From Selenomonas ruminantium subsp. lactilytica TAM6421 (GTDB taxonomy: Bacteria > Bacillota > Negativicutes > Selenomonadales > Selenomonadaceae), in contig NC_017068.1 in assembly GCF_000284095.1 (NCBI RefSeq), forward strand, positions 1,612,001-1,676,000: DNA of 64,000 nucleotides, written 5' to 3'. The notes below the pieces were generated by a model that saw only the letters and a list, made by a program, of their open reading frames with translations, was not told the origin of the DNA and did no database searches. The position numbers were made by a program, and so were the translations under genes. Of this stretch, positions 41,843-54,231 are shown piece after piece (the first letter of the stretch is position 1; every line of letters begins with the position of its first letter).

Positions 41843-41872
41843 TTGACAACATGTAAACTTTTTAGTTATAAT
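41843..41872 (+). promoter_or_regulatory. Strong promoter of the symporter leader
   Basis: A perfect TTGACA (41843-41848) and TATAAT (41867-41872) are 18 bases apart. Transcription would start near 41879, leaving a leader of about 133 bases before the symporter start. Confidence 0.8.
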
Positions 41873-41878
41873 ATCTAT

Positions 41879-42011
41879 GCATAAAAGATTATATTTTTCA
41901 GGCAATGGCGCCTTTTGCTTCTCCCCGGCAAAACTGACAGGATTTCTGTCTCTTTTGGATTCGGCAGAAACAAAAGGCGCTTTATATTTTTTTATGGAAA
42001 GAAGGTTGTTT
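41879..42011 (+). promoter_or_regulatory. Attenuator- or riboswitch-like leader of the Ala/Gly symporter
   Basis: GCGCCTTTTG (41908-41917) pairs perfectly with CAAAAGGCGC (41971-41980), and is followed by TTTATATTTTTTT, an intrinsic terminator placed before the start codon at 42012. Inside lie a GACAG/CTGTC hairpin (41936-41950) and alternative partners: TTTTGC (41913-41918) with GCAAAA (41928-41933), and CTTTTG (41952-41957) with CAAAAG (41971-41976). These alternatives exclude the terminator stem. A known glycine riboswitch core was looked for and not found. Confidence 0.55.
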
Positions 42012-43427
42012 ATGATTTTACTAAACTCTGTTGTTGATAGCATCAATACCATTCTTTGGTCATATGTGCTCATCATCATCCTGATCGGGTGTGGTATCTA
42101 CTTCACCCTGTCCACCAAGTTCGTCCAGCTGCGTATGTTACCGGAAATGGTAAAACTCCTTACGGAAGGAATCGGCAAAAAGACGGAAGGCGGCGCCATC
42201 AGCTCCTTCCAGGCCTTCTGCGTCAGCACGGCGTCCCGCGTAGGTGTCGGCAATATCGCCGGTGTAGCCATCGCCATAGTCACGGGCGGCCCGGGTGCTG
42301 TATTCTGGATGTGGGTTATCGCCTTTATCGGCAGTGCCACGGGTTTTGTAGAAAGTACCCTGGCACAGATCTACAAGATCCAACGTCCTGATGGCTCCTT
42401 CCACGGCGGCCCGGCTTACTACATCAAGAACGCCCTGCATCAGTCTGGCGTGGCTAAGCTCTTTGCTGTACTGCTGGCTGTCACTTTCGGCCTTATCTAT
42501 AACTCCGTACAGGCAAACACCATTGCCCTTTCGGCAGCCACGGCCTTCAATGTCCCACAGTATGTGACCGCCGGCGTGCTGGCATTCTTCACCGGCCTGG
42601 TCATCTGCGGCGGCGTACAGCGCATTGCCCAGGTTACGGAATTTCTTGTTCCGATTATGGCAGGTCTCTATATCCTCGTGGCCATTATCATCACAGTAAT
42701 CAATATTGACAAAGTTCCGGCTATGTTCGCCATGATCATCCATGATGCTTTCTCTCCGCAGGCTGCTGTTGGTGGCGGTCTCGGCTCTGCCATCCTCACG
42801 GGTGTGAAGCGCGGCCTGTTCTCCAATGAAGCCGGTGAAGGTTCCGTACCGAATGCCGCTGCCACGGCAGATGTCAGCCATCCGGTCAAACAAGGCCTGA
42901 TTCAGGCGTTCGGCGTTTATGTAGATACCTGGCTGGTCTGCTCGGCTACCGCATTCATCGTATTGCTGGCCGGTCAGTATACCGTGGGCGGCGAGCTTAC
43001 GGGTATTGCACTGGCACAGGCATCGCTGGCCAGCATCTTCGGTGCTTCGGCACCGGCAGCGGTTTCCTTCATGATCCTGATGTTTGCCTTCAGTTCCATT
43101 GTCGGCAACTACTACTATGGTGAAATCAACATTGCCTTCTTCGAAGCCAAGGGCAAGACCGCTCTCTTCCTGTTCCGGGCTTTGGTCATCTTCATGGTCG
43201 TTTTCGGCAGCATGGCCGAACTTTCCCTGGTCTGGAACCTGGCCGACCTCTTCATGGGGCTCCTGTGCCTGACCAACCTCTATGCAATCTCCCGCCTGTA
43301 TAAATACGCTCATGTAACCTTCGTCAGCTACTTAGAACAGAAAAAGCGCGGCGTTGAACCGGTCTTCGACCCGGCTATCCTGCCCGACGAACATGGCATC
43401 CATGCCTGGGGCGTAGATAAAGACTGA
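42012..43427 (+). CDS. Alanine/glycine:cation symporter (AGCS family)
   Basis: A sodium- or proton-coupled importer of alanine or glycine. The 471-residue protein has about ten or eleven membrane helices and family motifs such as ASRVGVGNIAGVAIAIVTGGPGAVFWMW (in part) and GLFSNEAGEGSVPNAAA, which line the substrate site. Translation most likely starts at the ATG at 42012, with AGAAGG 6 bases upstream; upstream in-frame codons from 41877 belong to the leader. The terminator-like leader suggests control by the transported amino acid or a related signal. Confidence 0.92.
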   Translation: MILLNSVVDSINTILWSYVLIIILIGCGIYFTLSTKFVQLRMLPEMVKLLTEGIGKKTEGGAISSFQAFCVSTASRVGVGNIAGVAIAIVTGGPGAVFWMWVIAFIGSATGFVESTLAQIYKIQRPDGSFHGGPAYYIKNALHQSGVAKLFAVLLAVTFGLIYNSVQANTIALSAATAFNVPQYVTAGVLAFFTGLVICGGVQRIAQVTEFLVPIMAGLYILVAIIITVINIDKVPAMFAMIIHDAFSPQAAVGGGLGSAILTGVKRGLFSNEAGEGSVPNAAATADVSHPVKQGLIQAFGVYVDTWLVCSATAFIVLLAGQYTVGGELTGIALAQASLASIFGASAPAAVSFMILMFAFSSIVGNYYYGEINIAFFEAKGKTALFLFRALVIFMVVFGSMAELSLVWNLADLFMGLLCLTNLYAISRLYKYAHVTFVSYLEQKKRGVEPVFDPAILPDEHGIHAWGVDKD

Positions 43428-43441
43428 ATATCATAATAAGA

Positions 43442-43476
43442 AAAACGTGCAGTGATCCGATTTCACTGCACGTTTC
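43442..43476. terminator. Bidirectional terminator between the symporter and chemoreceptor genes
   Basis: AAACGTGCAGTGA pairs with TCACTGCACGTTT, between convergent genes, with flanking A/T residues. Confidence 0.8.
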
Positions 43477-43504
43477 TTATTTTACACAAAGTTTGCTATA
43501 ACAA

Positions 43505-54156: not shown

Positions 54157-54231
54157 GCGCTCGTAGTCCAGTGGATAGGACGTTAGCCTCCGGAGCTGAA
54201 AGCGTGGGTTCGACTCCCGCCGAGCGCACCA
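54157..54231 (+). tRNA. tRNA-Arg (anticodon CCG)
   Basis: A 75-base cloverleaf with the CCA end encoded. The acceptor arms GCGCTCG and CGAGCGC pair. The anticodon loop CTCCGGA gives anticodon CCG, reading CGG. The T arm carries GGTTCGACTCC. It has its own promoter and is followed by a terminator. Confidence 0.97.

Follow-up and report, generated by a model that had tools for sequence, protein, structure and literature searches.

In Selenomonas ruminantium subsp. lactilytica TAM6421, the gene of a symporter of the Na+:alanine/glycine (AlsT/AGCS) family is separated from a strong promoter by a leader that carries an intrinsic terminator, and the question raised by this locus is which factor decides whether transcription ends in the leader or continues into the gene. 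An initial annotation of the window, i.e. the whole stretch of 64,000 nucleotides that was analysed (NC_017068.1, positions 1,612,001 to 1,676,000), had described the leader as an attenuator and had proposed that either a small molecule or a protein acts on it.

According to the available parts of PMC3369931, PMC7496416 and PMC3369936, ANTAR proteins recognise an RNA hexaloop with A at its first (A1) and G at its fourth position (G4), closed by a terminal C:G pair; where two such hairpins follow each other, the second (P2) overlaps the terminator at its 5' base. As likely ANTAR targets in diverse bacteria, the same partial texts (PMC3369931, PMC3369936) name the genes of glutamine synthetase and glutamate synthase as well as ethanolamine genes. 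The linker between the upstream hairpin (P1) and P2 measures 5-12 nt in eut leaders, for which deletion of P1 ablated induction by EutV (excerpts of PMC3369931), and 2-25 nt in actinobacteria (excerpt of PMC8164766). The accessible text of a 2022 article on the EutV-RNA structure (PMC8934654) states that one hexaloop suffices for ANTAR binding and asks to what extent single hexaloops are used.

By comparing leaders across genomes, we found it highly probable that the symporter leader is a single-hexaloop ANTAR transcription attenuator belonging to a nitrogen regulon, for which we infer both the binding of the ANTAR protein and the read-through into the gene.

Methods

Regions upstream of the symporter gene were collected by DNA and protein searches of 189 family genomes and by a protein search of GTDB contigs (best 80 of 575). 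The 18 distinct symporter leaders are the regions with the conserved core at no more than two substitutions, duplicates and the degenerate leaders L048, L132 and L192 being excluded. For glutamine synthetase, the family sample consisted of 110 leaders from 108 of the 178 matching genomes, namely the 30 best matches supplemented with leaders hand-picked for genus coverage. In a draw of 150 genomes across the class Negativicutes, to which the organism belongs, 121 came from other families and 111 had a match; 60 leaders were picked for family spread. The strict scan accepted a C:G-closed A..G.. hexaloop whose stem has 3 bp or more, provided that it overlaps a terminator that has 6 bp or more and a U tract. 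The stem test was performed on 170 family and class leaders, with no demand on the stem beyond its closing pair and with a minimum terminator length of 8 bp.

Results

The features of the locus are listed in Table 1. The promoter matches the consensus at all twelve positions and, judging from its pattern, the transcript is predicted to start at about 41879, which gives a leader of 133 nt up to the ATG at 42012. In a scan with the promoter fixed, exact TTGACA and TATAAT boxes with an 18-nt spacer were found in all 18 distinct leaders. Promoter, leader length and terminator are thereby as initially annotated, with the addition of a G-U pair (41907/41981) that extends the terminator stem of 10 bp (41908-41917/41971-41980) to 11 bp. 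The leader fold reaches -40.3 kcal/mol compared to -28.1 +/- 3.6 kcal/mol in 200 shuffles, only one of which was as stable (z -3.4). The leader is wholly open in the symporter frame from an ATG at 41877 (516-codon frame), which is probably unused as start because it lies at about the predicted +1. The closest named symporter among the best 80 of 575 in the protein search of GTDB contigs is that of S. ruminantium S137, with 99% identity. Further downstream, a strong bidirectional terminator (window 43441-43477) separates the symporter gene from a convergent gene that, judged by eye, reads like a chemotaxis receptor.

Table 1. Features of the symporter locus (window coordinates) and related elements elsewhere in the genome
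Feature	Position	Strand	Description
Sigma-70 type promoter	41843..41872	+	TTGACA-18-TATAAT, 12/12 consensus matches
-35 box TTGACA	41843-41848		18-nt spacer to the -10 box
-10 box TATAAT	41867-41872
Predicted transcript 5' end up to hairpin	41879..41899	+	21 nt
Putative ANTAR-type hexaloop hairpin (P2-like antiterminator)	41900..41913	+	stem 41900-41903/41910-41913, loop 41904-41909 AAUGGC
Terminator 5' arm	41907..41917	+	shares bases with loop and 3' stem strand of the hexaloop hairpin; only one of the two can form
Apical part of terminator hairpin	41918..41970	+	varies between species
Terminator 3' arm CAAAAGGCGCU	41971..41981	+	CAAA and GG invariant
U-rich tract of intrinsic terminator	41981..41993	+	sequence
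Shine-Dalgarno-like AGAAGG	42000..42005	+	read directly
Na+:alanine/glycine (AlsT/AGCS) family symporter, 471 aa	42012..43427	+	PF01235, E 1.2e-149
Tandem permease-eutA elements	L362:2385 and L362:2471 (G000:C1 about 1321884 and 1321970)
ATP-grasp operon element	L363:2779 (G000:C1 about 1521278)		single hexaloop and terminator

No Rfam family matched the leader at gathering score, the single match over the 64 kb being a tRNA at 54157, and neither the glycine riboswitch nor any other Rfam riboswitch or T-box gave a covariance-model match at that score. A permissive search of 451 bases around the leader returned eight matches far below gathering scores, none to a bacterial riboswitch: they were eukaryotic, archaeal-snoRNA-type or plant-virus models.

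The 5' arm of the terminator shares bases 41907-41913 with a small hexaloop hairpin, of which A1 and G4 are 41904 and 41907 and the closing pair is C41903:G41910; folded alone, this hairpin has a free energy of -4.4 kcal/mol. In folds of the growing transcript it was favoured (stem-pair probabilities 0.60-0.99) at ten ends from 41913 to 41975, i.e. while about 57 nt are transcribed, and it was gone at the four ends from 41978, where the terminator had formed instead. Since the terminator replaces the hairpin only at 41978, a bound ANTAR protein would have these ~57 nt of transcription to hold the hairpin; the same stretch has a median of 29 nt in glutamine synthetase leaders (range 9-104, 106 sites). 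That this delay compensates for a missing P1 is a guess.

The core AGGC[AAYGRC]GCCU varies across the 18 distinct leaders at Y3, R5 and the outermost A/G only; its longer form AGGCAAYGRCGCCUUUUG is kept together with the terminator 3' arm and most else varies. All 18 leaders, which were collected by this core, have the A1/G4 hexaloop on a GGC/GCC stem that ends in a C:G pair and is extended to 4 bp in the window. The initial annotation had announced two alternative pairings without naming them, and the two pairings seen here may or may not be those. AGGC (41900-41903) is able to pair with GCCU (41910-41913) in every one of the 18 leaders, two of which use a G-U pair; the second pairing, about 41914-41919 with 41927-41932, is by eye not kept in most relatives. 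The sixth hexaloop base is unchanged even in the six of 18 leaders in which it is unpaired in the terminator (L050, L052, L053, L133, L136 and L137), and AGGCAAY lies 5' of the terminator stem, in a leader that further upstream mostly differs between species. On these two grounds, the small hairpin seems to be conserved for itself. Of all signs of function, the strongest is that AGGCAAYG, most of which lies 5' of the terminator stem, is conserved. Outside hairpin and terminator arms little is common to all 18 leaders, the apical part varying in sequence and length. Hairpin and terminator stem are nearly invariant, so that no pair changed on both sides within the symporter leaders. A check for a leader peptide, made in the frame of the in-core AUG only, found this AUG in 11 of the 18 leaders and ACG instead in the other 7.

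A covariance model of the symporter leader (R1) found the element in 18 of the 22 genomes of the genus and gave no strong match outside that genus among the 189 family genomes, 119 of which encode the symporter at E <= 1e-100. Within the searched genomes, G144 and G161 have both symporter and ANTAR gene without the element, and G162 has a degenerate leader in which the terminator arms are kept and the hairpin with its A1/G4 hexaloop is lost (L048 and L192 are of the same kind). Twelve lower-scoring R1 loci were read (L192-L203): one is the degenerate G162 leader, three are glutamine synthetase leaders (L194, L195 and L197) and the other eight resembled ordinary terminators or chance. Elsewhere in the TAM6421 genome, the leader gave 13 other matches, all short (best E 0.02). 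The exact 18-base core occurs once in the genome, and with up to three mismatches 20 times compared to 21 for a reversed-pattern control. A pattern search of the plasmid collection was without match.

The glutamine synthetase leaders that the symporter-leader model weakly matched carry the same hairpin on a different terminator. In the family sample, the strict scan was positive in 64 of the 71 genomes with an ANTAR gene over the Pfam cut-off (ANTAR+) and in one of the 37 without (ANTAR-), with a Fisher p of 2e-20 that ignores relatedness; by genus, the counts are 23/26 and 1/4. Glutamine synthetase leaders were sampled for this comparison, and many of the genomes are incomplete assemblies. 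The element was absent throughout the ANTAR-free controls g6 (0/14), g11 (0/21) and g24 (0/1), three of the g11 genomes having weak PF03861 matches below the cut-off. Each of the 16 possible letter pairs at loop positions 1 and 4 was scored in the same way; A/G occurred in 64 of 73 ANTAR+ leaders and the next, G/G, in 5. Seven ANTAR+ genomes had no scored element (G185, G178, G182, G004, G005, G023 and G118). Conversely, G142 (g21; L233), a near-complete single contig, has a hexaloop-terminator before glutamine synthetase and no ANTAR gene over the cut-off, a recheck at permissive threshold giving only fragments below it.

An ANTAR gene was present in 55 of the 60 genomes of the class sample. 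Here the strict scan was positive in 33/55 ANTAR+ compared to 1/5 ANTAR- genomes, and a scan with slightly wider terminator placement in 36/55 compared to 1/5. The ANTAR+ misses (22 in the strict and 19 in the relaxed scan) include leaders with a hairpin and a terminator outside the thresholds: in six of the 22 the hairpin can be recognised by eye (G189, G192, G195, G198, G204 and G231), and the relaxed scan accepts three of these. A hexaloop-terminator without an ANTAR gene over the cut-off was found before glutamine synthetase in G275, an assembly that is 88% complete. Its leader (L411) holds two such elements, with hairpins 39 nt apart.

In many other families G-G-C[A..G..]G-C-C is replaced by G-U-C[A..G..]G-A-C. 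In the stem test, the loop letters A/G were found at 96 sites in 94 leaders; G/G came next, with 17 sites. Of the 96 A/G sites, 93 have stem position 2 paired (61 G:C, 30 T:A; shuffle mean 51.7) and 73 have position 4 paired (shuffle mean 40.5), values that none of 2000 shuffles reached; position 3 hardly varies and was uninformative (94/96 paired, 215 of 2000 shuffles). With the proviso that these counts enumerate sequences and not independent events, the hexaloop stem shows compensatory change across families. The covariation that the initial annotation had asked of the alternative pairings was thereby seen for the hairpin once the comparison was widened to the glutamine synthetase leaders, and not among the symporter leaders. 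As chance background, three further A/G hits (57120 +, 15767 - and 14950 -) arose when both strands of the 64-kb window were scanned for stems of 3 bp or more on terminators of 8 bp or more; these were taken as chance, and 57120 lies inside long reading frames.

The genome encodes exactly one ANTAR protein over the Pfam cut-off (PF03861, E 4.2e-22), consisting of a receiver and an ANTAR domain, and its gene directly follows that of a HisKA_2 kinase. Its closest solved relatives are the 'putative antiterminator' 1s8n (E 2.8e-59) and EutV (6wsh, E 1.2e-46). Six of the ten RNA-contact residues of EutV, as taken from the available part of PMC8934654 and matched in numbering with an offset of two, are kept (R142, K143, K149, Y164, M172 and R175), K147 is replaced by R, and R168, N173 and R177 are replaced by Q, Q and P. 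In genus g4, a glutamine synthetase gene has the ANTAR gene as its next neighbour downstream (adjacent in G020, about 230 nt away in G021).

For other targets in the TAM6421 genome (G000), the pattern GGCAAYGRMGCC was searched, giving 28 matches compared to 2 for the reversed control. Most look like coding sequence, and 24 have no overlapping terminator. The four that do are the leaders of the symporter, of glutamine synthetase, of a permease-eutA operon and of an ATP-grasp operon, a list that is partial since the pattern fixes stem and loop letters. Three other genomes gave 49 matches, and among the 22 loci read a terminator was present at three (glutamine synthetase twice, symporter once). 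The permease-eutA operon encodes an amino-acid permease (Pfam) directly followed by EutA (PF06277, E 2e-138), and judging from its sequence and this neighbour the permease probably carries ethanolamine. It is preceded by two tandem attenuators, AGC[AAUGGC]GCU and GGC[AAUGGA]GCC, each with its own terminator. The third operon encodes circularly permuted ATP-grasp, alpha-E and transglutaminase domains and is a possible new nitrogen-linked target.

A second hexaloop (P1) with a short linker was missing in nearly all leaders scanned. The sole A1/G4 candidate upstream of the hairpin in the window, AUA[AAAGAU]UAU (41881-41892), has a free energy of +3.0 kcal/mol and does not appear in the predicted folds. 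Of the 18 symporter leaders, two have an upstream A/G hexaloop whose stem reaches 3 bp (that of the window and its sister L039, both with three A-U pairs and with linkers of 7 and 6 nt), and the other 16 have none. A scan of 65 glutamine synthetase leaders, reaching up to 60 nt upstream from P2, found C:G-closed hexaloops of the A/G type in four leaders and of the G/T type in as many. Two strong P1-like hairpins, both in g15, stand before glutamine synthetase (L204 and L205; genomes G122 and G123), namely GUCAAC[AACGGC]GUUGAC and AUCAAC[AACGGA]GUUGAU, with linkers of 31 and 40 nt to P2. Of the 34 class leaders in which the hairpin was scored, two offer a candidate for P1, and the linkers measure 39 and 45 nt. 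Across 67 promoter-pattern sites, the hairpin starts a median of 25 nt after the -10 box (~18 nt after the assumed +1), and at three sites it does so within 15 nt (6 nt in G244), which leaves no room for P1.

Discussion

Our results suggest the following course of events. As long as the regulator is inactive, RNA polymerase starting from the strong promoter would first make the hexaloop hairpin 41900-41913; once the 3' arm (41971-41981) has left the polymerase, the terminator, being far more stable, would invade this hairpin and transcription would stop before the symporter gene. Upon a signal, the neighbouring histidine kinase, which is the presumed partner, would phosphorylate the ANTAR protein, which would then grip A1 and G4 of the hexaloop and keep the 5' arm from the terminator, so that the symporter is transcribed, positive control being the presumed direction. 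The proposed regulon would comprise glutamine synthetase, permease-eutA, the ATP-grasp/alpha-E/transglutaminase operon and the symporter, the latter being a member, as far as searched, only in the S. ruminantium clade. In the available text of PMC7299772, AlsT of Staphylococcus aureus, named like relatives of the Selenomonas symporter, is an efficient glutamine transporter; glutamine transport by an AlsT-type symporter would suit a nitrogen regulon.

The attenuator of the initial annotation is recognisable in the conserved promoter, the conserved hexaloop hairpin and the terminator that excludes it, and protein dependence is supported and can be given a name, as the hairpin obeys the rule for ANTAR recognition and occurs where ANTAR genes do. 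A small-molecule attenuator with an element sensing alanine, glycine or another amino acid, as also envisaged at first, would suit an importer gene with a conserved leader and a switchable terminator in which no known riboswitch was found, but we consider it very improbable: conservation is limited mainly to the 14-nt hairpin and the terminator arms, in our view not enough for an aptamer; the apical part differs in both sequence and length; and the same hairpin recurs on the different terminators of other nitrogen genes and tracks ANTAR genes. Equally little speaks for a plain terminator or 5' hairpin of no regulatory role that is conserved by common descent. Although the 18 leaders come from one clade and show no covariation among themselves, the bases 5' of the terminator are invariant while the flanks diverge, and the hairpin recurs across families with compensatory stem changes.

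Given that correlation is not binding and that G142 carries the element while none of its genes passes the ANTAR cut-off, the attenuator might be read by some other RNA-binding protein or factor that happens to track ANTAR genes. Against this stand the A1, G4 and C:G positions, which are those of the ANTAR rule, and the presence of glutamine synthetase and a eutA operon, both expected ANTAR targets, among the genes concerned, so that we regard another reader as quite improbable. Finally, the leader could be a canonical dual-hexaloop ANTAR target, of which P1 has diverged and still works, e.g. as AUA[AAAGAU]UAU at 41881-41892. The A1/G4 hexaloop with three A-U pairs shared by the window and L039 and the strong P1 of two g15 genomes would fit such a reading. 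It is nevertheless unlikely, in view of the unfavourable energy of the window candidate and its absence from the folds, the 16 symporter leaders without any A/G hexaloop, the equal numbers of A/G and G/T hexaloops before glutamine synthetase, the scarce and distant class candidates, the g15 linkers that exceed published lengths, and the leaders in which P2 starts at about the predicted +1. The single-hexaloop ANTAR attenuator remains the reading that we adopt.

This attenuator resembles the eut leaders controlled by EutV in Enterococcus faecalis, as far as these are described in the available parts of PMC3369931 and PMC8934654, in the A1/G4 hexaloop over the terminator 5' arm, in the receiver-ANTAR protein with a partner kinase and in having ethanolamine genes among the targets, and differs from them in having one hexaloop per terminator, no recognisable P1 and a 53-nt apical part. 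The nasF leader of Klebsiella oxytoca, controlled by NasR, has the same C:G closing pair, A1 and G4, but two hairpins with an essential P1 where there is one here, and NasR senses nitrate itself, in contrast to a receiver-ANTAR protein encoded beside a kinase (excerpts of PMC7496416 and PMC3369936). Unlike the Pseudomonas ANTAR systems, the symporter attenuator has one hexaloop only. The searches behind earlier predicted ANTAR targets required two hairpins, according to the parts available of PMC3369931 and PMC3369936, whereas the leaders described here have one. In its accessible text, PMC8934654 expects single sites where the transcribing polymerase sets no time limit and P1 plus P2 for attenuation; here, by contrast, single hexaloops sit on transcription terminators. 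Among the papers listed by our literature searches, which covered few subscription journals, we found no report of single-hexaloop attenuators in Negativicutes, and the supplementary tables of PMC3369931 may list some of the loci.

Conclusions

We think it reasonably likely that Negativicutes widely control nitrogen genes by one-hexaloop ANTAR attenuators near or at the mRNA 5' end, in which one hexaloop beats the transcribing polymerase. If so, the rule of an obligatory recruitment hairpin (P1) would be overturned, and covariance searches that demand two hairpins would miss such single-hexaloop targets. About 100 glutamine synthetase leaders (those of 102 genomes in the relaxed scan, two of them with a strong P1) and the 18 symporter leaders provide candidate natural single-hexaloop attenuators, together with an ANTAR-free control set, and make the question of single-hexaloop sufficiency directly testable. 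Glutamine synthetase in Negativicutes thereby gains a predicted regulator, and the S. ruminantium clade would have brought an AlsT-type importer under the same control.
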